Of a DNA stretch of 56,249 nucleotides, positions 6,460-56,249 are shown one piece after another. Made by a program: the position numbers and the translations under genes. Numbering within the stretch: the first letter of the stretch is position 1; each line of letters starts with the position of its first letter. The DNA lies in NCBI GenBank assembly GCA_902761225.1, contig CACWJQ010000008.1, positions 1-56,249 on the forward strand. Reading direction: 5' to 3'. The notes below the pieces were generated by a model, which saw nothing but the letters and a program-made list of their open reading frames with translations, did no database searches and was not told the origin of the DNA. This stretch comes from an uncultured Lachnospiraceae bacterium. GTDB lineage: Bacteria > Bacillota > Clostridia > Lachnospirales > Lachnospiraceae.

Positions 6460-6512
6460 ATAGCATAAACAGTATGGGAATTAACGTGGATCCGGATATT
6501 GTGAATAATAAA

Positions 6513-6541
6513 ACAATAGTGGCGGAAAACGTTTTTATACT
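6513..6541 (+). promoter_or_regulatory. Candidate promoter of the GGDEF-EAL gene
   Basis: A TATACT -10 (6536-6541) lies 17 bases downstream of a poor -35 (ACAATA, 6513-6518), giving a predicted leader of about 33 bases. The -35 doubles as the right arm of a TATTGT/ACAATA inverted repeat (left arm 6497-6502), which could be an operator. The ribosome site is AAGGAA, about 11 bases before the ATG. Confidence 0.4.
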
Positions 6542-6580
6542 ATAGAATGGAAATATACATGCTAAGGAAAGCGTGGCTGA

Positions 6581-8314
6581 ATGAGTGACAAAGTTCACAA
6601 TAAAGACAATCGAATAATCGAAACCACCCTTAACAATATGTATGATGCCGGGAAAAGACCTCCCGAGCGCATATTCTGGTTTCTTGTGGTGGCATATCTC
6701 ATCACCAATGTTGTGGTCTCCTCTACCGCCACTTCAGGAGGTACTATCTCATTCGGCGAACACAGCATACAGGTTTACACATTTGCCGGAGTATTCTCAT
6801 CTATCTCCAATATGTGTGTGATATTCATGTCAGTCTATTATGGCAAAAAGGGATATTGGAGCGGTCTTACACTGCTTCTGATCCAGCTTCCGCTTGTCCT
6901 CCTAAGCATCATCAAAGGACACAATCTTAACAGCATTCCGGGTGTATTTGGTTCTCTGCTGACCATGACCGCCATTACCTTTGTATATTTCAACGGAAAA
7001 AAGATCGACAACTACCAGAAAAAACTGCGTGACGTTGCCGTCACTGACATCCTTACAGGTATCCCCAACGGATTTGCCTGTGATGAGCTTGTAAATACCC
7101 TGACCCGCAGGAATGAACCCTTTGCCAATGTGACCATCAATCTGAACGCCTTCAAGAGCATCAACGATACCATGGGATTTGATGCAGGCAATCAGATCCT
7201 CATGGATACCGCGTACAGGTTAAAAAGTGTGGCCGAAAGCGGAGAAACAGGAACCTTTGATTTTGTGGGAAGAACCTCCGGCGATGAATTTTCTCTTATC
7301 ATACGGGGATACAAAACACCTGATGAACTGTATAAAGTCATCCAGATATATGATGAAGCCATCAATAAGCAATATACGGTTCTCGACTGTGACCTGTTTG
7401 TTTCAGCTTCTTTCGGATATGCTCTATACCCTGAGGATGGCGACACCCTTGACTCTGTGATTTCCCACTCCAACATTGCAATGAATGAGGTCAAGCGTAA
7501 AAACAACGGTAACCATATCCTCAGATATACCGAAGATCTCAACCAGAACAAGAAGCTCATAGAAATGGAGAGCAAGATAAGATCTGCGATAGATAATGAC
7601 AGGGTCTTTTTCATGCTCCAGCCACAGTTCGATATGGAACACAGGCTCCGCGGTTTTGAGGCACTGGCCCGTATAAAGGATAAGGACGGCACGATCATCA
7701 ATCCGGGAGACTTCATCCCCGTTGCAGAGAAGGTCGGACTTATCGATAAGATAGACGGTATCATCTATAAAAAAGCAGGTGGATTTATAGGAGAACATAT
7801 TAAGAAAACCGGCTCAAAGGTTACCTTAAGTATCAATGTATCCGTCATGCATCTTATGAAGAAGGACTTTATCGATGAAATCTCGTCTCTACTTAGGACC
7901 ACAGGTATTCCGGCTGATCAGCTTGAAGTAGAGATCACCGAATCGGTTATGATCGAATCTCTTGAAAAAGCAATGGACCGCATCAGCACTCTTCACATGA
8001 TGGGTATTAAGATCGCAATAGACGATTTCGGAACAGGATTTTCATCCTTAAGCTATCTTAGCGAATTTCCTGCCAACCTTCTTAAGATTGACAAGGCCTT
8101 CATCGACAAGCTTCTTACCGGAGAAACATCAAAGCAGTACGTTGCAGGCATCATCTCCCTCGGACACACCATGGGATTTGATGTCATCTCGGAAGGAGTC
8201 GAAGAAGATGAACAGCTTGAGGTCCTCCAAAGAATAGGCTGCAATTACATCCAGGGATTCATATGGGGACGTCCTCTCCTTCCCGAAGATGCTGAGAAGC
8301 TCATTACCGACTGA
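6581..8314 (+). CDS. Membrane GGDEF-EAL protein, probable c-di-GMP phosphodiesterase
   Basis: A 577-residue protein with four membrane segments (about 31-48, 65-87, 92-112, 118-138), then GGDEF (about 150-315) and EAL (about 330-570) domains. The EAL domain looks catalytically complete: EAL at 360-362, INVS, EITES, IDDFGTG, KIDKAF, SEGVE and YIQGF are all present. The GGDEF domain is degenerate: the motif is SGDEF (233-237) and the metal-binding Asp of the usual DxDxFK block is Asn (NLNAFK, 187-192). It therefore more likely binds GTP as a regulator than makes c-di-GMP. Monocistronic: own promoter region and a strong terminator directly after. Its product could be read by the PilZ protein of the motility operon in this window. 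Confidence 0.93.
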   Translation: MSDKVHNKDNRIIETTLNNMYDAGKRPPERIFWFLVVAYLITNVVVSSTATSGGTISFGEHSIQVYTFAGVFSSISNMCVIFMSVYYGKKGYWSGLTLLLIQLPLVLLSIIKGHNLNSIPGVFGSLLTMTAITFVYFNGKKIDNYQKKLRDVAVTDILTGIPNGFACDELVNTLTRRNEPFANVTINLNAFKSINDTMGFDAGNQILMDTAYRLKSVAESGETGTFDFVGRTSGDEFSLIIRGYKTPDELYKVIQIYDEAINKQYTVLDCDLFVSASFGYALYPEDGDTLDSVISHSNIAMNEVKRKNNGNHILRYTEDLNQNKKLIEMESKIRSAIDNDRVFFMLQPQFDMEHRLRGFEALARIKDKDGTIINPGDFIPVAEKVGLIDKIDGIIYKKAGGFIGEHIKKTGSKVTLSINVSVMHLMKKDFIDEISSLLRTTGIPADQLEVEITESVMIESLEKAMDRISTLHMMGIKIAIDDFGTGFSSLSYLSEFPANLLKIDKAFIDKLLTGETSKQYVAGIISLGHTMGFDVISEGVEEDEQLEVLQRIGCNYIQGFIWGRPLLPEDAEKLITD

Positions 8315-8341
8315 AGGATACGAAATATCATTACAGAATAC

Positions 8342-8380
8342 TAACAGGGGAGCCTGAAAGGCTCCCCTGTTAAATTTTTA
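8342..8380 (+). terminator. Strong intrinsic terminator after the GGDEF-EAL gene
   Basis: A perfect 13-bp stem (TAACAGGGGAGCC with GGCTCCCCTGTTA) and a TGAAA loop are followed by AAATTTTTAG. It lies 27 bases after the stop. On the other strand the same stem may also end transcription of the convergent phosphatase lipoprotein gene, though there the T-run is poor. Confidence 0.9.
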
Positions 8381-8431: not shown

Positions 8432-10606
8432 TCAGGCCGCTTTTACGACATACTCGGTATAAAGTCTGTAATATTCACCGATTGCATCTTCAAACAGGCC
8501 GCGGAAATCCTCATCCTTATACAGACCGTCATTATTCTGTCTGATCCCGTCAAAACTCAGATGACATATCGCAGGGGGATTGTTAAGATCAAGTAATATC
8601 GCATTCCTGAGCTGTTCTGTTGTCTGATAAACAAGATCTGCTGACCAGAACTGATCCCCCGACTCATTACTCCATTTAGTAAATACAAGCTTGCATCCGA
8701 TGGGAGTTGTCTTTTCTATAGCACCTTCAAGGTCATAATCCTCTGCACCGAGTGCAGCAAGCACGCTTCCTATATTGGAATCATGTCCGCACAGGAATGT
8801 GAACTTCCTGTTACTCATACCCATCTCATAATCGATCTCTTCAAGTAAAGGCTTGGCAACATTGATTGCAACAAGAGGCGCTGTAAAAAGTACATCCCCA
8901 TATACATCCTTTATCTCTGCGATCTGTTCCCACTCTTCCATGGTAAGCTCATTGCCGAATGCAGCTTTCACGGCATCACTCTCTTCATAGTACTGCAGAG
9001 TCAGTGCATCGCTGACGGAACATGCTGTTTTCAGGGAACCTGATACAGCAGGTTCTGCCCCTGTGACAAGGGAGAAGATGCTGTCGTCAGTAACAAATCC
9101 GGTAATATCTCCGTTCTTGTAACTTTCGGAATCTGTAAGCCCGATCACCTCTGAAAGCAGTTCGTAATTGTCTTCAAGACCGGCTATACGGTCTTCGAAC
9201 ATATCCAGTATCTGATCCTTGGCATCTGCTGCGTATTCGTCGGTACAGAAGGTAAGCTGCGGAGTGAATACAGGATCCATCTTATCGAACTCTGCATGAT
9301 ATTCAACTTCAAGTCCTGCAGTAGGAAGAAGCGCCGATGCAAAATACTGAGCTGTTGCTATGGTACGCTGTTTGGAATTGGCATATATCCTGAACTCTCC
9401 GGGCGCAGGATCATAACCCGCTGTGATAAGCCCTTCCTCCTCCATCCATTTGCGGAAGTAATGACCCATTTCCGTTTCAAGGACTCCTCCTCTGAGTGAC
9501 AGTTCACTAGGTGCGGATGTCCATTCGAACCAGTCATAGGGTGTTATGGAACCCAGAACAGAGCCTGCTCCGCTTAAGGGGGATCTGATATTATGTCTGC
9601 TGAGAACGATCACCTGCTCAAGCGTATATCCCTCATAAGATATGCTCCGGGTGATGTCCTCCTGATCAGCATCATCTGTGTCTTCATTCTCCGGATCAGC
9701 CTGGTCATCATTATCTTCTTCGTCATCATCCCCCGAACCGGCATCAGCATTCTCCACTCTTTCGATATCCTCAGACTGATCTATGGTGAGATCAAATCCT
9801 GCAAACATCTCATTATCCGGAATCTGCATCTCAAATCCGTCGGTATCATCCCAGGTAATAGTCCCCTGAGTGAGCTTAAGCCCCAGCACATGCCCGCCCA
9901 TAGTCCTGTCATCGGAGATAAAGTGAAGATGCCATCCGGTGGCATTAAGATCCTTCATATAAGGCGGACAGTAAAGACATACCAGCGTACCATCCACATT
10001 CTCGTAATCAAAGAAAGTCTGATCAGTCTCAAGCACATCGGCAAGCGGCTTATAAGGCTCTTCCTGGGCCAGCTCGCTTCTGACATTTATCTCGGAAAAC
10101 CTTCCATCAATCCTGACCATGTAGAACCTGTTGATGCCTCTTTCCTCAACTGTTTCATTCAGAATATCAAGGAGCGAACCGATATCTCCTATTCTCCTGA
10201 TATCCATCTCCATATCACTGTCAAGAAATGTCACATTGGAGAAAGGAACTGTCTCGGTATCAGGCACCTCCTCAACAGTGCCATCACCTGCAGCACGGTA
10301 CACTTCACCATCGATGACTATCATCTCACCGTTAAGGGCGTCGAATGTACCAAGGCCTGTGTCACCATGCTCCTTAAGTTCTTCAACAGTTATACTTCCA
10401 TGATAATCCCCGAATGTAAGCCCCTGCAGAAGGGACACCTGGAACATCACATCCCTCTGTTCATCTGATACGGAAACATCCGGGAATTTATCGGATAATG
10501 CACGGTCTGTACGGCTTCTTTCCCCTCTTATGGGTCCGGAGCAGGCTGCAAGTGAAAATGTCATCATAAAAGCCATTGAAACAGATATAATCTTCTTGAT
10601 CATCAT
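8432..10606 (-). CDS. Lipoprotein fusing acetolactate-decarboxylase and histidine acid phosphatase domains
   Basis: About 724 residues. The start is the ATG preceded six bases away by AAGGACAG; an upstream in-frame ATG lies at the predicted -10 box. A signal peptide ends in the lipobox LAAC (Cys22), so the protein is likely anchored outside the membrane. Residues about 50-275 match alpha-acetolactate decarboxylase: LGTFDALNGEMIVIDG, FYMVRIDGRF and HLHFISDDRTMGGHVL, which keeps the three zinc-ligand histidines (226, 228, 239). An acidic linker (about 287-318, Asp/Glu rich) follows. The C-terminal 400 residues are a clade-2 histidine acid phosphatase with RHNIRSP (Arg337, His338) and the proton-donor HD in CGHDSNIGS. 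I know of no described protein with this pairing. The enzyme roles follow from family; the combined role is unknown. Confidence 0.88.
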   Translation of the reverse strand: MMIKKIISVSMAFMMTFSLAACSGPIRGERSRTDRALSDKFPDVSVSDEQRDVMFQVSLLQGLTFGDYHGSITVEELKEHGDTGLGTFDALNGEMIVIDGEVYRAAGDGTVEEVPDTETVPFSNVTFLDSDMEMDIRRIGDIGSLLDILNETVEERGINRFYMVRIDGRFSEINVRSELAQEEPYKPLADVLETDQTFFDYENVDGTLVCLYCPPYMKDLNATGWHLHFISDDRTMGGHVLGLKLTQGTITWDDTDGFEMQIPDNEMFAGFDLTIDQSEDIERVENADAGSGDDDEEDNDDQADPENEDTDDADQEDITRSISYEGYTLEQVIVLSRHNIRSPLSGAGSVLGSITPYDWFEWTSAPSELSLRGGVLETEMGHYFRKWMEEEGLITAGYDPAPGEFRIYANSKQRTIATAQYFASALLPTAGLEVEYHAEFDKMDPVFTPQLTFCTDEYAADAKDQILDMFEDRIAGLEDNYELLSEVIGLTDSESYKNGDITGFVTDDSIFSLVTGAEPAVSGSLKTACSVSDALTLQYYEESDAVKAAFGNELTMEEWEQIAEIKDVYGDVLFTAPLVAINVAKPLLEEIDYEMGMSNRKFTFLCGHDSNIGSVLAALGAEDYDLEGAIEKTTPIGCKLVFTKWSNESGDQFWSADLVYQTTEQLRNAILLDLNNPPAICHLSFDGIRQNNDGLYKDEDFRGLFEDAIGEYYRLYTEYVVKAA

Positions 10607-10663: not shown

Positions 10664-10676
10664 CTTTACCATTATA
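10664..10676 (-). promoter_or_regulatory. Candidate promoter of the phosphatase lipoprotein gene
   Basis: A consensus TATAAT -10 lies at 10671-10676 (minus strand) with no convincing -35. The predicted leader is about 58 bases, ending in the AAGGACAG ribosome site. The longer in-frame ATG at 10672 would sit on this -10, which supports the shorter start. Confidence 0.5.
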
Positions 10677-46118: not shown

Positions 46119-47708
46119 TCACAGCTGTGACATCTTAACTTCACCCTGGGAACGGATGAACCTGCAGTATTTATAACTGTCCTTAACCGTCATGGACAGA
46201 TCGCCTATTATGATGGTAGTCCCCGGATACACCTCACCGGTCACGACAACCTCTGCCTTTCTGTCCGGATCGAATATCTGTGAGAGTTCCTTCATCCTGG
46301 CGTTCTTAACCATAAGCTCCTGCTTCATGCCCTCGAGCTTTGCGACAGTCTGCTTTATATATTCGATCTGATCGGCTGTTATCCTTGCACCCTTTGCCTT
46401 TTTTTCCATGAAATTCCGGATTATGGGCTGGGTATCCTTGATGGACTTAACGAGTGCTGCAACCTCTTTGCTGATCCTGTTATATTCCATCTTAAGTTCG
46501 GGATTGGCTCCCACTTCGATTATCGTCTGGGAACCCATGACACCGCCGAGAGTCCTGGCCTCCACCTTTGTATCCGCCTGAATATGACAGCCTGTGATAA
46601 ATCCGTGCTTTCCGGTAACCATCACCTCGGTGCCCGAGATCACCTCGCTGTGCAGAATGGATTCCGTATTAACGTATCCCCCTGCCTTCACATAGCAGTT
46701 CTCGATAAACTTGGAAACGATATTGTTCCCGGCTTCGAGAATTCCCTTGCTCATGCCGTTCACGCCTCTGGCGATTATTATATTGCCACCGGCTACGATA
46801 TGAGCTCCTTCCACGGTACCGTATATCACAACATCACCCGAAGCCTTTACTTCAAAGTTGGATGCGATATTTCCGTTAACCTGCACGCTGCCGGTAAAAT
46901 CTATATTACCGGTGGAGTTATCAACGTTCTCGACAGTATATATATCGGACACGAAAACCGAATTATCCGTAAGTGTGACCATGCCGTCTATCTCGGAACT
47001 GATGGTCAGTCTGTCTTCGGAAAGTCTGATATTCCTGCCGAAATCATGACGAAGCTTCTTGACTTCACGGGGCTTTATCTGAGCTCCCTGTATAGTCATA
47101 CCGGGCTCACCCGGATCTTCCGGTGTGATCTTCGCCAGCACATCCCCTGCCTTGATATTATTGACTATCCCCAGATGAAAATAGTCCACGGATCCGTCTT
47201 CGTTCACCTCAGGCTTTGCCCGCAGATCCGTATTAAAAAAATATTCTATCCGTGCATCGGTTCCATGCCTCGGAGCCTTTCCCTTTGCCACAACGATATC
47301 CGTACAATAAATCCCGGAGCCCTCGAAAAGCTCCCTGATGATATCTTCCCGGATTCCGAATCTGATCATCCTGAAGGACATGTCCCTCATAAACTCATCG
47401 GCAGTCATCCTCTCACCGGTTTCAGAAGGCGGATAGAATCTTGCAACTGCCATCAGATTATCATCCGATACGGAAAAGTGATAACTCTCTCTTATGGCGG
47501 GACATTCGCCTTCGCCAAGTTCAAGTATGTTATCACTGCCGGACTCGGCGGCATCCCTTACTTTGGTGATATCATATACTATCCCGTTTGCATCCAGATA
47601 ACCTGTGATCTCCAGTGTGCTTACGGCTTCTCCGCCGTCTTTGGGCGCAAAAACAGAAAGGCCGTAGCCTCTCTGTGTTTTTACAATTTTGAAATATCCG
47701 TTACGCAT
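46119..47708 (-). CDS. FapA/DUF342-family protein
   Basis: 529 residues. The centre (about 150-400) has the FapA repeat region: GEPGMTIQGAQIKPREVKK, then glycine-rich beta-helix turns such as VQVNGNIASNFEVKASGDV. A C-terminal coiled coil follows (about 425-480). The family occurs in flagellar operons and in Vibrio, where FapA affects flagellar assembly; the molecular role is not settled. It sits 20 bases after the sigma factor gene. The Shine-Dalgarno match is weak. Confidence 0.88.
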   Translation of the reverse strand: MRNGYFKIVKTQRGYGLSVFAPKDGGEAVSTLEITGYLDANGIVYDITKVRDAAESGSDNILELGEGECPAIRESYHFSVSDDNLMAVARFYPPSETGERMTADEFMRDMSFRMIRFGIREDIIRELFEGSGIYCTDIVVAKGKAPRHGTDARIEYFFNTDLRAKPEVNEDGSVDYFHLGIVNNIKAGDVLAKITPEDPGEPGMTIQGAQIKPREVKKLRHDFGRNIRLSEDRLTISSEIDGMVTLTDNSVFVSDIYTVENVDNSTGNIDFTGSVQVNGNIASNFEVKASGDVVIYGTVEGAHIVAGGNIIIARGVNGMSKGILEAGNNIVSKFIENCYVKAGGYVNTESILHSEVISGTEVMVTGKHGFITGCHIQADTKVEARTLGGVMGSQTIIEVGANPELKMEYNRISKEVAALVKSIKDTQPIIRNFMEKKAKGARITADQIEYIKQTVAKLEGMKQELMVKNARMKELSQIFDPDRKAEVVVTGEVYPGTTIIIGDLSMTVKDSYKYCRFIRSQGEVKMSQL

Positions 47709-47728
47709 TAAAAGATACTCTCAGAAAC

Positions 47729-48505
47729 TTAAACACTGTGTGTAAGAATGTTCATGTACGGTCCGAGCTTGTCCTTCATCTTTTTAAGTGCCCTTGTATG
47801 AAGCTGGGATATCCTGGATTCGGACACATCCAGAACCTGAGCGATCTCCTTAAGAGTCATCTCCTCATAATAGTAGAATGTGATTATCTGCTGTTCCTTG
47901 TCGGATAATCCGCTGAGAGCCTCGGACAGCTTCTCTGTCAGTTCCTTTTTATCAATATTTTCCTCGGGACTAAGGAAATGGGTGGTGGTCTGTGAAGAAG
48001 GCGAAGATGCCACATCCGCTCCGGACTCCACAAATTCATCCAGACTTACAAGACCGGTTATCTTCATCTGATTCTGCCAGTCAGAAAACTCATCCTCGGT
48101 TATGCCGAGAGCCTGGGCTATCTCGTCATCCGTCGCCGCCCTTCCCTTCGACTGCTCGATCTCGTGCATGACGGCATCGATCTTCTTCTGTTTCTGTCTT
48201 ATGGTCCTGGGTATCCAGTCCATCTTACGGATCTGGTCAAGGATGGATCCTCTTATACGAAGGGAGGCATATGTCTCGAATTTGACATCCTTGAGGTTAT
48301 CAAACTTGTCGATGGCATCTATCAGTCCGAAGATACCGTAGCTGCACAGATCCTCAAACTCCACATTATAACCCAGGTACATGGATAATCTTCCTGCAAC
48401 GACCTTAACCAGAGGTGCATACTCTATTATGAGCTGCTCCCTGGTCTCCGCGCTTCTGCTTACCGCATAATCATCTAATAATTTTTTTCTGGAGGATTCG
48501 TCCAT
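47729..48505 (-). CDS. sigD: Flagellar sigma factor sigma-D/FliA
   Basis: 258 residues, FliA/WhiG family. Region 2 (FEDLCSYGIFGLIDAIDKFD ... RKMDWIPRTIRQKQKKI) and region 4 (LSDKEQQIITFYYYEEMTLKEIAQ, SRISQLHTRAL) are intact. It directs late flagellar and chemotaxis genes (promoters TAAA-N15-GCCGATAA). Its place after cheD matches B. subtilis. No anti-sigma FlgM is encoded in this window. Confidence 0.96.
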   Translation of the reverse strand: MDESSRKKLLDDYAVSRSAETREQLIIEYAPLVKVVAGRLSMYLGYNVEFEDLCSYGIFGLIDAIDKFDNLKDVKFETYASLRIRGSILDQIRKMDWIPRTIRQKQKKIDAVMHEIEQSKGRAATDDEIAQALGITEDEFSDWQNQMKITGLVSLDEFVESGADVASSPSSQTTTHFLSPEENIDKKELTEKLSEALSGLSDKEQQIITFYYYEEMTLKEIAQVLDVSESRISQLHTRALKKMKDKLGPYMNILTHSV

Positions 48506-48512
48506 ATATCAG

Positions 48513-48785
48513 TTATCCGTTTTCCTGTCCGTCAGATCCATCATCCGCGGAACCATTGTTATCAGTCTCATTTTCAGCCGCTGCCGCTTTGGCCGCATCG
48601 GCATTTACCTTATCAAAATGATCCAGGAAATACACTATCACGCTTCCGACAAAATAAAATATGAGAAAGACAGCCAGAAGGCTTACAAGCTTATATATTA
48701 TACTGTAACCCCTGATAAAAGTTATGATGACAGTAACGAGCCCTGCTATCAGCATCAGTGTCAGAGGGAGTAGTCTTCTCTTCAT
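48513..48785 (-). CDS. Small two-helix membrane protein between cheD and sigD
   Basis: 90 residues: two membrane segments (about 5-22 and 28-52) and an acidic Asn/Asp/Gly-rich tail. The start overlaps the cheD stop (TAATG), and sigD follows after seven bases, so it is surely translated with them. No family recognised. Confidence 0.75.
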   Translation of the reverse strand: MKRRLLPLTLMLIAGLVTVIITFIRGYSIIYKLVSLLAVFLIFYFVGSVIVYFLDHFDKVNADAAKAAAAENETDNNGSADDGSDGQENG

Positions 48786-49267
48786 TATATGGTCTTTTCC
48801 GGCTTTCCCACAGCCTTGATCACGTAGTCTCCGGTCTCGGGATAAAATATTACTGTACGACCGAAGTTAAGTCCGCAGTCCTCGGCAAGTATCGGTATGC
48901 CGAGCTCCTTAAGTTTCTTCTTGACCGCTTCAACATTTCGTTCGCCGACATTCAGGCTGGATCTCGAGCTGACGGCAAACATTGTTGCACCGCCTGCGAT
49001 CTTTGCTGTCATGTTACGCCTGTTGGCCCCCAGCAATTCCATCTGCCTTATGAGTTCCATTATGCCTGTATCAGCAAACTTGGCAAGATTGGTCTGATTG
49101 GCTATTACGGTGGAATCCGGCAGCATTATATGTGCAAGCCCGCCGACTTTTTTCAATTTGTCCCTTAAGGCAATACCAACGCATGATCCAAGACCAAGTG
49201 TCGTTATTCCGTTCGGGGGGAGGCATGTCTTAAGGTCAGCCATACCTACTTTGATAATCTCACTCAT
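48785..49267 (-). CDS. cheD: Chemoreceptor glutamine deamidase CheD
   Basis: About 160 residues. CheD deamidates receptor glutamines and is a partner of CheC. The catalytic Thr23, Cys29 and His46 are in TLGLGSCVGIAL and GGLAHIMLPDS. The ATG follows AGGGGAAG by six bases; a TTG two codons earlier is less likely. Two other CheD landmarks are AKIAGGATMF and NVGERNVEAVKKKL. Confidence 0.96.
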   Translation of the reverse strand: MSEIIKVGMADLKTCLPPNGITTLGLGSCVGIALRDKLKKVGGLAHIMLPDSTVIANQTNLAKFADTGIMELIRQMELLGANRRNMTAKIAGGATMFAVSSRSSLNVGERNVEAVKKKLKELGIPILAEDCGLNFGRTVIFYPETGDYVIKAVGKPEKTI

Positions 49268-49312
49268 CCGCAACTTCCCCTAGATCGATCGAATAAACAT
49301 TTTCCTTCATTC

Positions 49313-49933
49313 TCAGATTGACAAACCGAGGGAAGTAAGGATCTTCCTGTATGAATCCATATCGGGAACCAGTATAAAATACCCGTCTATCTGTACTTCA
49401 TCAAAAAAGTTGGACTGTATCATCAGGATCTGGTCTCCATAGATACCAAACTCTATCGCGGGAACCGAAAGGATCGCCCCCGCCATATCCACCGTCAGTG
49501 CGGGAGGTGAAGGGAAAACCCTAAGTCCCGTAAGCATGGAAAGCGAATTCAGATAGGCTCCGGTGATGATATTTCCCACTTCCTGCATTGCCGACAGTTC
49601 CATCTCGGTGAAGTCTTCACCGGGATCACCCATGCCCATCATGACTTTATTGATAAGTGCCTTCGCGCTTTTCTGCTCTACCAGGAAAAGCATGGATCCG
49701 GTGACATCTCCCTCAACACCGAGGAAAACACCCACCATGATCTGCTCTTCACCGCCGATTGCAGCCCCGACCTCAGAAAAATCAAGCAGCTCAACCTGGG
49801 GAACTCCCATGTCTATCTTGCTTCCGAGCATCTGTGACAGGGCTGTCATGGCGTTTCCTGCACCTATATTTCCTATTTCCTGTAAAACATCGTAGTAATT
49901 CTGAGTAACTTCATGAAGACTAAGGTCGCTCAT
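49313..49933 (-). CDS. cheC: CheY-P phosphatase CheC
   Basis: 206 residues. Both phosphatase motifs are present: LQEIGNIGAGNA (Glu19, Asn22) and MQEVGNIITGAY (Glu118, Asn121), so two active sites are expected, as in B. subtilis and Thermotoga CheC. It dephosphorylates CheY-P and controls CheD. It lies 25 bases after cheW. Confidence 0.96.
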   Translation of the reverse strand: MSDLSLHEVTQNYYDVLQEIGNIGAGNAMTALSQMLGSKIDMGVPQVELLDFSEVGAAIGGEEQIMVGVFLGVEGDVTGSMLFLVEQKSAKALINKVMMGMGDPGEDFTEMELSAMQEVGNIITGAYLNSLSMLTGLRVFPSPPALTVDMAGAILSVPAIEFGIYGDQILMIQSNFFDEVQIDGYFILVPDMDSYRKILTSLGLSI

Positions 49934-49958
49934 AAATAATGCTCCGTATAAGAGATGA

Positions 49959-50453
49959 TTAGTTGTCGTCTAAGCTGATGGACGCAATATCCAGAATGGA
50001 GATCAGTTCATCACCGTTCTTTCCCACTGCACTTACGAACCTTCTTGATTCCGGCACAGCGCCCTCTGCAGTGGTAGATTCGATCTGGTCTTCAGAAAGC
50101 TTTATAACCTCCTTGACCTCATCAACGATCACTCCGACGCTGCCCTCCGACTCGATCTTAAGGATTATTATCCTGGTATTTCTGTTAATGACATCCTCGT
50201 CCAGTCCCATCTTAAGTCTGAGACTCATAACGGGTATGACCTCGCCCCTCAGATTGATGACACCCTTAAGATAAGCGGGAACCTTGGGAACCCTGGTTAT
50301 CTGCTGCATACGGAGAATGTTATCTATGTAATTGATATCAATACCGAAATTCTCTTCTCCGAGCTTAATGACTATATACTGGAATATCTCTTTTGTTATC
50401 TTGGTCTCATCACCGCCTGCGGGAAGATTCCTGAGATCATTACTCAATTCCAT
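49959..50453 (-). CDS. cheW: Chemotaxis coupling protein CheW
   Basis: About 164 residues, a single CheW domain linking CheA to receptors (INLRGEVIPVMSLRLKMG; a segment like VIVDEVKEVIKL). The ATG follows AAAGGCAGG; an in-frame codon eight residues upstream would lie inside cheA. It starts 20 bases after the cheA stop. Confidence 0.96.
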   Translation of the reverse strand: MELSNDLRNLPAGGDETKITKEIFQYIVIKLGEENFGIDINYIDNILRMQQITRVPKVPAYLKGVINLRGEVIPVMSLRLKMGLDEDVINRNTRIIILKIESEGSVGVIVDEVKEVIKLSEDQIESTTAEGAVPESRRFVSAVGKNGDELISILDIASISLDDN

Positions 50454-50473
50454 ATTAACCTGCCTTTCTGCTC

Positions 50474-52633
50474 TCAAAGAAGTGCATTGGTATCAAGGAT
50501 AAGTGCAACCTCACCGTCTCCAAGGATGGTTGCGCCGCTGATGAACTTGACCTGTTTGATATATCTGCCCAGTGACTTGATAACGATCTCCTGCTGTCCC
50601 TTAAGCTCATCGACCACGATGCCCGCCATCTTATCACCCTTTTTAACGATGACAACCGTAAGGTTTGCATCATCGGGGCACTTCGATTCCACATCTATAA
50701 GTTCACATAACCTTATCAGAGGAAGAACCTGTCCGCGCAGATTGATGACCTCCCTGTTTTCTACATACTTGATATCCCCTCTGGGTATGGTTTCGATGGT
50801 CTCGATGGAACCGAGGGATATCGCATACTTCTCGCCGCCCACAACTACCATGAGAGTCTGAATGATGGCAAGAGTGAGAGGAAGTCTGATCGTCCATGTT
50901 GAGCCTTCTCCGAGGACCGACTTAACGCTCACCTCTCCGCTGAGTGCCTCGATCTTGGACTTGACCACATCAAGTCCCACACCTCTTCCGGATACATCGG
51001 TGATCTCCTTGGCAGTGGAAAATCCCGGATGGAAAAGAAGGTTTATGGCATCCTTGTCCGCCATCACAGCAGCCTGTTCAGGTGTGACAACCCCCTTCTC
51101 GACAGCCTTGTTCTTGACTGCTTCAACATCTATTCCGTTACCGTCATCCCTTACCTCGATGATGACATTATTGCCTTCCTGATATGCATCAAGGAAAATG
51201 GATCCTGTCTCGGGCTTTCCGCGCTGCGCACGGACCACTGCGGATTCAATACCATGGTCTGCGGAATTCCTGAGAAGGTGCATCAGAGGATCTCCGATCT
51301 CATCGACCACAGTACGGTCAAGTTCGGTATCTTCGCCGGTCATGTACAGTTCCATCTTCTTGCCGAGCTTCTTGTTGAGATCACGTATCATACGCGGGAA
51401 CTTCTGAACGGTACTCTCTATCGGAACCATTCGAACCTTCATAACAGATTCATGAAGGTTGGTGGTTACGCTCTCTAAGTATTCTATCTTCTCGTTAAAA
51501 TCAGTATTGGCACCTGATGCCGCTACGGATTCAGCGGAAGCGGACACTATGCTGTTCTTGGCAATGATAAGCTCCGAAACGAGGTTCATCAGTGAATCAA
51601 GCTTCTCGATATCGACTCTTATGGTCCTGTTGACAACGGGCTTTCCGGGCTTTCTCTCAGCAGGCTTGGCTGCAGGTGCCTGTGCTGCTGGAGCAGGAGC
51701 TGCCGTAGCGGGCTGTGCTGCAGGCTGTGCAGGTGCCGTCTGCGCTGATGTCTCACCGGCTTTAACCGTCTCAGCTGCCGGAGTCTCCTGTGCAGGTGCA
51801 TCTCCACCGTCAGGCACTTCATCGTCTTCCACATGTATCTTGTCGATATCAAGTGCATCGCCCACAACCTTATCTATCTCGGAAACATCTGCTGCTGCCT
51901 TGATGATGGTCTCGATGGGACACTCTGCAATGACGATCAGTGTGAAATCAAGATCAAACTTTTCGTCCTCTATATCCTGTGAACTGGGATCGGAGACTAT
52001 GATCTCTCCACCCTTTTCCTCAATGGCCTTAAGTACAAGAAAAGCCCTCGCTGCCTTAAGAATGCATGACTCTCTGACGGTAACATTTATACCGTACACA
52101 TTCATGCCGGACTTGATGGCTTCGTGTATTACCTTAACCTGTGAATCGTCGTACTTGATGTGATTCCATTTATCGGATGCGCCTGAAGCTTTGTCTTCAG
52201 CCTTTCCGGATGCTGCGGGTGCCTTGGCAGCCGGAGCGGGCTCGGAATCCTTTTTATTGAGAAAATCATTAAGAAGCTTGATGAGGGGCTCATTATCGTT
52301 GGTTCCCTCATCAGAAGAATTTTTGATATTATCGGTATATTCCTGAAGGGCATCCAGGCACTGGAAAAGAGTGTCGATCATCTCGGGACCGACCTTGATA
52401 TTGCCGGCTCTTACCTCGGAGAACACGTTCTCCATATCATGGGTAAGATTCTGCATTCTCTTATAGCCCATCGTTCCGGCCATACCCTTGAGAGAGTGTG
52501 CCGCACGGAAGATCTCGTTAATGGTGTCCGAATCCTCGGGATTCTGTTCGAGGTTGAGGATCTGAGTATTCAGACTCTGCAAGTGTTCGTTAGTCTCATC
52601 GAGAAATATCTCCAGATACTGACTGACATCCAT
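50474..52633 (-). CDS. cheA: Chemotaxis histidine kinase CheA
   Basis: About 719 residues with the usual domains. P1 has the phospho-accepting His46 in FRAAHSLKGMAG. P2 (about 160-260) binds CheY/CheB. An Ala/Pro-rich linker (about 275-330, poor complexity) follows. P3 dimerisation includes LDSLMNLVSELIIAKN. P4 ATPase has RNSADHGIE, DDGNGID and GRGVGLDVV. P5 is the CheW-like end (NLRGQVLPLIRLCEL). The ATG follows GGAGG by seven bases; an upstream start would add nine residues. Confidence 0.97.
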   Translation of the reverse strand: MDVSQYLEIFLDETNEHLQSLNTQILNLEQNPEDSDTINEIFRAAHSLKGMAGTMGYKRMQNLTHDMENVFSEVRAGNIKVGPEMIDTLFQCLDALQEYTDNIKNSSDEGTNDNEPLIKLLNDFLNKKDSEPAPAAKAPAASGKAEDKASGASDKWNHIKYDDSQVKVIHEAIKSGMNVYGINVTVRESCILKAARAFLVLKAIEEKGGEIIVSDPSSQDIEDEKFDLDFTLIVIAECPIETIIKAAADVSEIDKVVGDALDIDKIHVEDDEVPDGGDAPAQETPAAETVKAGETSAQTAPAQPAAQPATAAPAPAAQAPAAKPAERKPGKPVVNRTIRVDIEKLDSLMNLVSELIIAKNSIVSASAESVAASGANTDFNEKIEYLESVTTNLHESVMKVRMVPIESTVQKFPRMIRDLNKKLGKKMELYMTGEDTELDRTVVDEIGDPLMHLLRNSADHGIESAVVRAQRGKPETGSIFLDAYQEGNNVIIEVRDDGNGIDVEAVKNKAVEKGVVTPEQAAVMADKDAINLLFHPGFSTAKEITDVSGRGVGLDVVKSKIEALSGEVSVKSVLGEGSTWTIRLPLTLAIIQTLMVVVGGEKYAISLGSIETIETIPRGDIKYVENREVINLRGQVLPLIRLCELIDVESKCPDDANLTVVIVKKGDKMAGIVVDELKGQQEIVIKSLGRYIKQVKFISGATILGDGEVALILDTNALL

Positions 52634-52673
52634 AATGTATCCTCCATTCCGTGTTATCAAAGAGAAGGGATGA

Positions 52674-53753
52674 TCATCTTATCCCGATCCTCATTGATAT
52701 CTCCTCAGCTACCTTGTCGAGGCCTGTTACCTGATCTGACAATCCGGCGTTATAGACCGCTTTAGGCATACCGTAAATGGTCGATGTTGCTTCGTCCTGT
52801 GAAATTACATATGTCTTGCGACTTGCCTTCAGTTTCCTGATACCTTCAGTGCCATCCGCTCCCATTCCGGTAAGAACACAGCATACTATCTGGTCAAACC
52901 TGGAACCGATAAGCGATTCGAACATATAGTTGGCACAGGGTTTTACACCTTCCCTGAGAGGTTCATCGGTATAATGTATCTTATATGAACCTGACGGAGT
53001 AAGGACGATGTTCATATGAAGACCGCCCGCTGCGATATAGGCATGACCCTTCTCGAGTACCTGACCCTCAGACGCCTCACATACCGGCATCTTCGATACC
53101 GAATTGAGCCTCTGGGCAAGAGTTGCGGTAAAGCCCTTGGGCATATGCTGTACCACAACAACCGGTGCATCAAGATTCTCCGGCAGATAAGGTATAACGG
53201 CCGAAAGTGCCTTCGGACCTCCGGTAGAGCTTGCGATGGCTACTATCTTGGAGCCGGCTATCCTGGAGCCGGACCTTGACAGAAGTCCCATCAGATGATC
53301 CGTATCGGCTCTTCTCTGCCTCTCACGTGACTTATCCTCAAATACAGGGAGTCTCGAATTAGCAACGCCCTTCAGCGTGTTCAGGAATACCTGAGTAAAA
53401 TCGCCTTCCTTGCATGCATAAGCCTGATCCGGCTTATGTATAAAATCAAGGGCACCGAGTTCCAGCGCGTCCATGGTTGTCTGCGCACCTTCCCTTGTAT
53501 CGGTACTGGCCATCATGACCCTTTGGGGAAGACCCGCTTTTTTCAGTTCCGCCAGGAACTGGATACCGTTCATCCTGGGCATATTGACATCCAGGACGAT
53601 GGCGTCATATGTATTTTTCTTCACAAGTTCCAAAGCTTCAAGGCCGTTTATGGCTCTGCCCGCAACTTCAAAACTCTCATCACTGCTTATTATATCACAG
53701 AGCACTCTTCTCATGAGTGCAGAGTCGTCAACAACCAGGATTTTTTTCTTCAT
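52674..53753 (-). CDS. cheB: Protein-glutamate methylesterase CheB
   Basis: 359 residues. The receiver domain has Asp55 in AIVLDVNMPRMNG. The methylesterase domain has the Ser-His-Asp triad in ASSTGGPKAL, VVQHMPKGFT and LTGMGADGTEG. It removes methyl groups from receptors when phosphorylated by CheA. No cheR lies in the window. GAGG ribosome site. Confidence 0.97.
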   Translation of the reverse strand: MKKKILVVDDSALMRRVLCDIISSDESFEVAGRAINGLEALELVKKNTYDAIVLDVNMPRMNGIQFLAELKKAGLPQRVMMASTDTREGAQTTMDALELGALDFIHKPDQAYACKEGDFTQVFLNTLKGVANSRLPVFEDKSRERQRRADTDHLMGLLSRSGSRIAGSKIVAIASSTGGPKALSAVIPYLPENLDAPVVVVQHMPKGFTATLAQRLNSVSKMPVCEASEGQVLEKGHAYIAAGGLHMNIVLTPSGSYKIHYTDEPLREGVKPCANYMFESLIGSRFDQIVCCVLTGMGADGTEGIRKLKASRKTYVISQDEATSTIYGMPKAVYNAGLSDQVTGLDKVAEEISMRIGIR

Positions 53754-53781
53754 ATTGGTCCTCAGGTTTTAATCAGTCAGA

Positions 53782-54501
53782 TCATCTCTTCAGGTTCTTT
53801 CTTTCCTCCTCAAAGATGAATCTTATGATCTCCTCCCTTGCTCCACGTTCCATGTTGATATACTGGACTCTGTGTTCGAAGGTACCGGGCCTGTTTTCCA
53901 GCTCTTTTACAACGAGTACCTTGCCTATGAGCTCGTACTTTTTACGCTCACCGCCTATAAGAAGGTTGTAGCTGATATAGAGCATGCTTCCGGGCTCATA
54001 CTTCTGGTTGGACATGAATCTCAATCCGCCGCCGGAGATATCCACGATAACGCTTCTCTTGATGGGAAGGTTCGGCTGCAGGTAGAGAGGACTCTTATTG
54101 GCTACGGCATTTACCTCTTCCTCCACCAGATTTCTGGAACACATCTCAAGAGCACAGCTGAATCTGTAATATTCTCTGCGCTGATATTTTCTCAGGTTAC
54201 TGGTCAGCTCAAGCACCAGAACATAGATATTATTGGATTTATATCTGTCGATGACCCTGACAAAGCACTGATAGAGGCCGGCATTGGCATATACTATCAT
54301 GTTGAATTCCGCATCAACGGGGAGCAGGATAAGCTTTGTCTGCTCAAGAGGCATCTGGACCTCAACGGAATCCTCCGAAAGGATGTCCACTATCTTGGTC
54401 TCATAATATCTCGTGTTCTCGCCTTTATCGCTTCCGTCAAGCTTACGGTCAACCGCTGTGAGCTCCACTCTGTCACCCGGCGAAATAAAATTGCTAAGCA
54501 T
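53782..54501 (-). CDS. YcgR-like PilZ flagellar brake
   Basis: About 239 residues. An N-terminal YcgR-type beta domain (about 1-95) precedes a PilZ domain with the c-di-GMP motif RREYYR and DISGGGLRF, both intact. It likely slows or stops flagellar rotation when c-di-GMP is high. The start was set at the ATG with GGAGG eight bases upstream; a start six codons earlier would overlap flhG. It links the operon to c-di-GMP enzymes such as the EAL protein at the left end. Confidence 0.93.
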   Translation of the reverse strand: MLSNFISPGDRVELTAVDRKLDGSDKGENTRYYETKIVDILSEDSVEVQMPLEQTKLILLPVDAEFNMIVYANAGLYQCFVRVIDRYKSNNIYVLVLELTSNLRKYQRREYYRFSCALEMCSRNLVEEEVNAVANKSPLYLQPNLPIKRSVIVDISGGGLRFMSNQKYEPGSMLYISYNLLIGGERKKYELIGKVLVVKELENRPGTFEHRVQYINMERGAREEIIRFIFEEERKNLKR

Positions 54502-54515
54502 ATATAAAACCTCCG

Positions 54516-55385
54516 TCATCTTCTGGTAACTATATGTGAGAAAAATGCAGCCATTCCCCTGGCAGGTCTCTTGCCTTCTCCGTTCTCGTCAAGAAGTGCC
54601 CGTGCTATCGTCTCATATGCCAGCGAGGATCTGGCACCCGGACTGCTCAGAGAAACCGGCATCTGCTGCATTACCGCATCGGATAACTGCGGATCCTGCG
54701 GGACCGAACCGAGATATGTAAGCGGCAGCTTCAAAAATCTCTGCACTACGGAATTGAGCTTTTTGTAAAGTGTCTGTCCGTCAGCATCCCTGCCCACCCT
54801 GTTGGCTATCATCCTGACGGATGTCTCCTGGGGATTGAACCTCGGATGCCTTGCCAGTGCCTTCAGCAGTGAATATGAATCCGTTATGCTGGTGGGCTCG
54901 TGAGTGGTTATAAGAAGTATCTCTCCGCTGGCCACCAGGAATTCAAGTACCGCATCGGATATACCGGCTCCGGTATCAACTATTATTATATCAGCAATGG
55001 AATCAAGTTCGGAAAGATTCTGTATGATGTAGTTCAGATAATCATTGCTGAGATTGGACATTCCGGCAATGCCGCTGCCGCCGGATATGAAGCCCACTTC
55101 TCCCGGGCCCCAGGTTATGATGTCCTTAATGTTCTTGCCCTGATATATCAGATCACACAGATTATGCTTTGGAACCGTCCCAAACATTATCTCTATATTT
55201 GCAAGTCCGAAATCAGCATCCAGTATGATCACCCTCTTGCCGAGTTTTTTCATCTGTATCGCCAGATTGATGGCGGTGTTGGATTTACCGACTCCGCCTT
55301 TTCCGCTTGTAACGGTTATCACTCTCGCAAGGGGTCTCGCCTGTCTGTTTGCCTTTATGATACGGAGCGATTCAGCCTGATCCAT
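54516..55385 (-). CDS. flhG: Flagellar number regulator FlhG (MinD-like ATPase)
   Basis: 289 residues. The N-terminal DQAESLR (2-8) is the FlhG activation motif that stimulates the FlhF GTPase. The MinD-like domain has the deviant Walker A SGKGGVGKSN, DADFGLANIE and VDTGAGISD. FlhG sets flagellum number by acting on FlhF and the C-ring. Four bases separate it from flhF. Confidence 0.96.
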   Translation of the reverse strand: MDQAESLRIIKANRQARPLARVITVTSGKGGVGKSNTAINLAIQMKKLGKRVIILDADFGLANIEIMFGTVPKHNLCDLIYQGKNIKDIITWGPGEVGFISGGSGIAGMSNLSNDYLNYIIQNLSELDSIADIIIVDTGAGISDAVLEFLVASGEILLITTHEPTSITDSYSLLKALARHPRFNPQETSVRMIANRVGRDADGQTLYKKLNSVVQRFLKLPLTYLGSVPQDPQLSDAVMQQMPVSLSSPGARSSLAYETIARALLDENGEGKRPARGMAAFFSHIVTRR

Positions 55386-55389
55386 AGCT

Positions 55390-56249
55390 TCACTCTCCTC
55401 CCAACAGCTGCTTTACGATACGCTGCGCGTTAAATGTTTCAATATCATCCGGGACATTCTGACCGCATGTTATAAAGGCTATGGCGCTGTTCGAATAGCA
55501 CTTTATATTATACAGGCTGCCGAGTGTGGATGTCTCATCAAGTTTTGTGAAAATAAGCTGAAAATCCGATACTGTACGGTAGTTGTCAACGATCTTCTTG
55601 AGATCCTTGTACTTGGTGGTAGCGGAAAGAACAAGGAAGCACTGTTTCGACACCGTCTCAGGCAGGCATTCCATATAGCTCTTCTGCTTGGCAAGAAGCT
55701 CCTCACTTTTATGGGAGTGACCTGCCGTGTCAACCAGGATATAATCACAGTCACTGAAATCTTCACATGCAATGAGCAGTTCATCCTCCGAGTAGATGAC
55801 CCGGAAAGGTACTTCAAGGATGCTCGCATAGGTCCTAAGCTGGTCTGCCGCAGCGATCCTGTAGGTATCTGTGGTAAGCAGTGCAACCTTTCTTTTATCA
55901 TTCACGGACAGTGAACTGGCCACCTTGGCTATTGTGGTGGTCTTGCCGACACCGGTGGGACCGATGAAAAATATGACTACAGGCCCCTTGGCTGCAGGCT
56001 CTGCAATACCGTCTGCCTTGCCAAAGCGCAGTATCATCTTCTGATAGACCGCACTGAGATAATGATCCAGCTTGGCACCGGGCTTTCCTGCATTTCCGGC
56101 ATTCCCCACAAGCTCATTTACAAGCTTCTCATCGATATCGTTATCGATCATTGTGTTGTAGAGAAGTCTCAGGAATCTGGAGGTCTCCCTGTCAGGTTCC
56201 TCCTTGGGAGCCCCGGCATTATCTGCGGGTGCGGGACTTTCAGTCTTTT
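55390..56249 (-). CDS. flhF: Flagellar GTPase FlhF (5' end outside the window)
   Basis: Only the C-terminal 285 or so codons are visible. The frame stays open through the window edge, so the methionine at 56151 is internal. The visible N-terminal part (Pro/Ala/Glu-rich) is the linker before the NG domain. The SRP-type GTPase has GPTGVGKTTTIAK, TTDTYRIAAADQL, VDTAGHSHK and FTKLDETSTLGS. FlhF places the flagellar basal body and pairs with FlhG. Confidence 0.95.
   Translation of the reverse strand, partial: KTESPAPADNAGAPKEEPDRETSRFLRLLYNTMIDNDIDEKLVNELVGNAGNAGKPGAKLDHYLSAVYQKMILRFGKADGIAEPAAKGPVVIFFIGPTGVGKTTTIAKVASSLSVNDKRKVALLTTDTYRIAAADQLRTYASILEVPFRVIYSEDELLIACEDFSDCDYILVDTAGHSHKSEELLAKQKSYMECLPETVSKQCFLVLSATTKYKDLKKIVDNYRTVSDFQLIFTKLDETSTLGSLYNIKCYSNSAIAFITCGQNVPDDIETFNAQRIVKQLLGGE

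Follow-up and report, generated by a model that had tools for sequence, protein, structure and literature searches.

A predicted lipoprotein from an uncultured Lachnospiraceae bacterium joins acetolactate decarboxylase and histidine acid phosphatase domains

The 56,249-nucleotide stretch of DNA analyzed here (the window; contig CACWJQ010000008.1, assembly GCA_902761225.1, from an uncultured Lachnospiraceae bacterium) contains a gene that fuses an acetolactate decarboxylase (ALDC) domain to a histidine acid phosphatase (HAP) domain. With modest confidence, we favour the reading that its product is a cell-envelope lipoprotein made of two complete and independent exported enzymes sharing one lipid anchor; the family of each half occurs elsewhere alone with an export signal. 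A previous sequence-only reading had described a single frame with a lipobox, an ALDC-like domain, an acidic linker, and a clade-2 phosphatase domain. All these elements are present, and the exported fusion is real, since Pfam E-values of 1.5e-71 (ALDC) and 6.5e-18 (HAP) are not those of chance matches. Its remark that no such protein had been described also held in our limited search of the open-licence PMC literature, where no ALDC-HAP protein was found.

The frame is uninterrupted and encodes 724 aa when counted from the ATG at 10606, which is directly preceded by AAAGGACAG. The mechanical open reading frame (ORF) starts 22 codons upstream, at the ATG at 10672, giving a 746-aa reading to which the Pfam domain positions below refer. 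The N-terminus has the features of a bacterial lipoprotein as predicted by direct reading, i.e., a charged start, a hydrophobic stretch, and a lipobox cysteine (MMIKKIISVSMAFMMTFSLAAC). The features are collected in Table 1.

Table 1. Features of the ALDC-HAP fusion gene and its 3' flank (window positions; residues of the 724-aa reading)
Feature	Position	Strand	Basis or remark
ALDC-HAP fusion gene, 724 aa lipoprotein (predicted)	8432..10606	minus	stop codon at low end
Lipoprotein signal peptide (predicted), residues 1-22, lipobox LAAC (residues 19-22), C22	10541..10606	minus	direct sequence reading, motif position
ALDC domain, about residues 54-289; E94, R176, H226, H228, H239, E285	9740..10447	minus	profile and alignment
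Acidic linker, about residues 291-315	9662..9736	minus	sequence
HAP (Agp-like) domain, about residues 321-710; R337, H338, R341, R414, H608, D609	8477..9646	minus	profiles, fold
Inverted repeat resembling a terminator, where the convergent fusion and GGDEF-EAL-type genes meet at their 3' ends	8341..8373	both strands	

The N-terminal half is assigned to ALDC by two profiles, both over their cut-offs: PF03306 (residues 76-295, 240.7 bits, cut-off 25) and TIGR01252 of NCBIfam (206.3 bits, cut-off 180.65). This is the profile assignment on which the sequence-only reading had made its own claim depend. In the PDB, its sequence matches the ALDC 4bt2 (1.8e-43). The H226-x-H228 and H239 residues are present, and the six residues listed in Table 1 align, in that order, to E65, R145, H194, H196, H207, and E253 of the 4BT2 chain, with positions counted from the alignment. 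We take these six to be zinc ligands or catalytic residues (Glu, Arg, Glu). The ALDC fold may be re-used here for another reaction, yet all six are kept. Thus, the half shares the full domain and the six residues with acetolactate decarboxylase (EC 4.1.1.5; PF03306, TIGR01252; PDB 4BT2), but it differs from it in standing on a lipoprotein, in being fused to a phosphatase, and in forking with lipoprotein-type ALDCs.

The C-terminal half matches PF00328 at residues 350-671 (65.7 bits, cut-off 23.6). It carries RHNIRSP at residues 337-343 and HD at residues 608-609, the motifs of histidine phosphatase branch 2, and the fold comparison places it in the same branch. Its best PDB sequence match is the glucose-1-phosphatase Agp (3ntl, 7e-78). 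Agp (NF007553; PDB 1NT4, 6RMR, 3NTL) is its best match in both sequence and fold and shares the RHN-type nucleophile motif and the HD; the window domain differs in scoring below the Agp cut-off and in being the C-terminal half of a larger lipoprotein. An Agp-like working of this half is likely, with no claim to membership of the Agp equivalog. In both halves the expected residues are kept, so that the active sites do appear intact, as had been suggested.

The ALDC half has exported relatives. Apart from the window, 18 of 39 ALDC rows show a lipobox or a signal peptide according to a crude pattern, which also supplied the signal labels of our 40-row ALDC tree. The window half falls in a five-row fork (94/92, not starred) with L016, L024, and L025, which have lipoboxes, and L037, which shows no signal peptide. 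It stands apart from 15 rows that have no visible signal and make up a starred clade (100/98). Tree and signals together set exported ALDC apart as a separate type. Descent of the N-terminal half from a cytoplasmic-type ALDC, one lacking a signal, was rejected, because the tree forks it with lipoprotein-type rows. Elsewhere, L040:1459-3091 holds tandem genes for one lipoprotein ALDC and one unsignalled ALDC, and the ALDCs of L136:1051-2205 and L141:73-1188 bear an N-terminal extension resembling, by eye, a copper-amine-oxidase N-type repeat.

The HAP half also belongs to a family found in many contexts. A contig search with an alignment as the query found 532 relatives. Only the 80 most similar loci were retained, and it is these that the architecture counts describe; an earlier contig search with a single protein as the query found no relatives. 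Many relatives are titled as rumen assemblies, and some loci repeat genomes (L098 and L007; L101 and L009). Architectures were assigned by Pfam for representatives, by blastp for L078, L096, L098, L100, L101, and L121, and by likeness to L055 for L056, L061, and L063. Using a length criterion, 23 of the 80 loci have long extensions. The extension types are HAD before (n = 8) or after (n = 2) the HAP domain, prephenate dehydratase (PDT) after it (n = 5), PAP2 before it (n = 2), Ig-like Big_2 before it (n = 4), SLH-like (n = 1; L117), and unassigned by Pfam (n = 1; L116), the HAD match of L092 and the SLH match of L117 being below the Pfam cut-offs. The C-terminal extension of L116 (L116:3347-4459; about 370 aa), with no Pfam match at 0.01, is by eye of the cell-wall-hydrolase type. 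Two further HAP loci carry a dockerin (L054:3275-4858 and L059:106-1722). These are possibly cellulosome-borne phosphatases; the open-licence PMC literature yielded no paper on a HAP with dockerin. A separate search found a nucleoside hydrolase before the HAP domain in L014:1483-3879 and after it in L011:526-3093. In L034:1486-3880, HAD and HAP lie in two overlapping frames, while the relatives have a single HAD-HAP frame.

The five HAP-PDT (PF00800) fusions (L104:2252-4366, L111:3803-6007, L113:90-2516, L120:3851-5986, and L121:2820-4955) have a signal or membrane N-terminus, and all five genomes encode one or more additional PDTs in open frames of 360-412 aa, presumably the usual cytoplasmic enzyme. 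Together with the HAD, PAP2, and nucleoside hydrolase fusions (L091, L106, L112, L011, and L014), they belong to the same HAP family as the window protein, their signal or membrane parts being recognized by eye; what differs is the partner, and ALDC was met as a partner once. In the HAP tree, made by a quick method without bootstrap, the window domain, four HAP-PDT proteins, and stand-alone Butyrivibrio proteins group in one fork (88). The starred branches of this tree imply at least three label changes each for PDT-after and HAD-before and two for PAP2-before, where three label changes could also be one gain and two losses. These architectures mark HAP as an exported module that combines promiscuously.

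The partners are found as neighbouring genes, too. A stand-alone lipoprotein PDT (L098:5220-6155) adjoins the end of a HAD-HAP gene, a HAD gene follows HAP in L119, and a PAP2 gene follows HAP-PDT in L120 and L121. Genes of the CstA family lie just upstream of HAP or HAD-HAP in L062:2199-3626, L091:1343-2767, L096:194-1618, and L100:1561-2853. In L062, CstA, a dockerin-HAP, a HAD lipoprotein, and a PDT lipoprotein stand in a row on one strand, the HAP frame being broken, the dockerin read by eye, and the PDT (6475-7041) truncated where the contig ends. The idea of a conserved operon surrounding HAP was rejected as unsupported, since after HAP itself the neighbour groups cover at most 5 of the 80 loci; the largest (5 loci) consists of ORFs opposite to and overlapping HAP, and the others cover at most 4 loci.

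According to the reading of two independent enzymes, the protein would be exported and then attached to lipid at C22. The ALDC half would decarboxylate acetolactate leaked by the cell itself or by its neighbours to neutral acetoin, and the Agp-like half would, outside the membrane, dephosphorylate sugar phosphates or similar compounds. The fusion would be one outcome of a wider habit of these Clostridia, by which an Agp-like phosphatase stands beside other exported enzymes or is fused to them, and the gain would be co-export, one anchor, and equal dosage, not substrate channelling. As the partners vary and acetolactate has no phosphate, two independent reactions are the simplest mechanism. In the own genome, acetolactate synthase gives two matches above the cut-off and ALDC no further match; acetoin formed via ALDC would thus be made outside.

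Linkage of the two families was also looked for in other genomes. In L047, a metagenome-assembled genome titled Selenomonadaceae, ALDC and HAP genes follow each other in this order, on the same strand and in the same frame, with 24 bp from stop to start and, by eye, a signal peptide each. L047 is identical in its match to L144 of genome G1166, which belongs to the G743 family, where 141 of 189 genomes match the query. With the window genome left out, HAP occurs in 2 of 5 genomes with exported-type ALDC in one sample (13 of 396 with HAP; Fisher p 0.009) and in 4 of 8 in another (11 of 391 with HAP; p 2e-5); in the G545 family, the figures are 2 of 5, with HAP in 4 of 48 overall. The lists behind these figures were made by hand, the samples share some genomes, and in many genomes no more than two candidates were scored. 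The limit for "exported-type" (50% identity) was picked after the data had been seen, counting L037 without signal peptide and L041, cut at its start, as exported type, and leaving out G474 (a C-terminal HAP fragment) and the ALDC rows below 50% identity, including the G533 fragment.

Several observations weigh against the reading of two independent enzymes on one anchor. A single genome, assembled in 106 contigs and 93% complete, showed the exact fusion. Adjacent ALDC and HAP genes were seen in one contig, and at least five other same-contig pairs of the Selenomonadaceae family, among the matches listed, lie about 5 to 31 kb apart. The co-occurrence statistics ignore kinship. The nearest NCBIfam model for the phosphatase, Agp (NF007553), gives 333.3 bits, below the equivalog cut-off of 425. 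In addition, acetolactate carries no phosphate, so the reactions of the halves are unlinked, and a stop codon interrupts one of the two matches to acetolactate synthase.

The assumption is that amino-acid and overflow pathways have their enzymes inside the cell. The signals of ALDC here and of PDT in the relatives would place them on the outer side, chained to a phosphatase. If these outer forms are active, the bacteria would convert shared metabolites on the outer side of the membrane, with relevance to the cross-feeding in rumen communities of phosphate, acetoin, and aromatic keto acids. The fusion and the HAP fusions of its relatives hint that metabolism beyond the cell membrane may be a little-known habit. 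As a bolder generalization, less likely than not, anaerobic Clostridia may run a modular extracytoplasmic metabolism in which lipoprotein or surface versions of classical cytoplasmic enzymes (ALDC, PDT, HAD and PAP2 phosphatases, and nucleoside hydrolase) are, in many chains or clusters, combined with a common Agp-like phosphatase, sometimes with CstA-type carriers nearby, and capture and convert metabolites that leak from the cell and its neighbours; the window protein would be its ALDC form. CstA is a pyruvate importer in E. coli (PMC5847655), and exported fusions of shikimate-pathway enzymes with an unclear role have been published (PMC10520331), so that a wider extracytoplasmic scavenging or overflow pathway is a fair, if unproved, idea. 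The chorismate mutase-cyclohexadienyl dehydratase fusions are likewise exported and rare, and join two normally intracellular enzymes with an unclear role outside, but they catalyze consecutive steps of one pathway and come from different families (PMC10520331).

The proposal of one extracytoplasmic pathway, with related overflow metabolites as the substrates of the HAP, ALDC, HAD, PDT, and nucleoside hydrolase modules, where the keto-acid or neutral products are taken up, e.g., by CstA-type carriers, appears unlikely. It would account for the repeated fusions and neighbourhoods (HAP-PDT, HAD-HAP with PDT in L098, the L062 row, and CstA upstream in L091, L096, and L100) and for the further PDT in five of five HAP-PDT genomes, and it has a published parallel in the exported chorismate mutase-dehydratase fusions (PMC10520331). 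However, the named substrates and a sugar phosphatase have no common chemistry, no cluster with ALDC plus PDT or CstA was present in the loci examined, 57 of the 80 loci lack a long extension by the length criterion, and a CstA-type neighbour occurs in 4 of 80 only.

It is improbable that binding or sensing, instead of turnover, is now the task of either half or of both. The Agp-like domain does behave as a module that joins dockerin, Ig-like, and enzyme partners, but the motifs are kept in the distinct rows (loci L003-L172), i.e., SRHxIRxP in 118/120 and GHD in 120/120 HAP rows, and HxH-10-H in 39/39 ALDC rows.

The sequence-only reading had considered a two-step reaction on a phosphorylated keto or hydroxy acid. 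In such a scheme, HAP would dephosphorylate the compound and ALDC would decarboxylate the product. The expected residues of both sites in one chain and the same ALDC-then-HAP gene order in L047 agree with it, but the HAP partners elsewhere are unrelated enzymes hardly able to use the same product, and lipoprotein-type ALDCs occur in genomes without a HAP match (G395, G297, G368, G522, and G507). Given the close stand-alone exported relatives of each half and the varied HAP partners, the joining can be explained with no substrate in common, and we regard this proposal as very doubtful.

The doubt about an assembly error was lowered, although not abolished. The assembly is a draft of 106 contigs, and no second ALDC-HAP chain was found among 397 family, 392 order, 398 phylum, 189 G743-family, 31 genus, and 48 G545-family genomes (overlapping sets), nor among the best 80 of the 532 relatives from the contig search. 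On the other side, one frame spans both domains and the linker, there is one lipobox with no second signal peptide by eye, the codon scores of the halves (0.191 and 0.198) are native to the window (0.201 +/- 0.055 for 35 genes), and the flanking genes are as in two other species of the genus, making a chimera of two separate genes highly improbable.

In these two species (G1317 and G1315), the convergent GGDEF-EAL-type and FAD-type genes are separated by 60 and 29 bp, respectively, when counted between the matches, and by 41 bp between the ORFs in G1317; the neighbouring FAD protein is 82% (G1317) and 74% (G1315) identical. As both genes nearly abut, nothing there corresponds to the window's 2.4-kb interval. 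In the other genus genomes compared, the GGDEF-EAL gene was not found beside the FAD gene within short flanks. The only HAP match in 31 genus genomes is the window's own, and a different ALDC (42-45%) is present in 3 of the 31. A search for direct repeats (14 or more) on either side of the fusion gene found none. In the simplest reading, the gene was probably gained recently between its two convergent neighbours; instead, it may have been lost in other genomes of the genus.

A PADLOC scan gave no match. Elsewhere in the window, a run of chemotaxis and motility genes, recognized by eye (CheA, CheW, CheC, CheD, CheB, FliA, and FlhF types), occupies positions 46119-56151.
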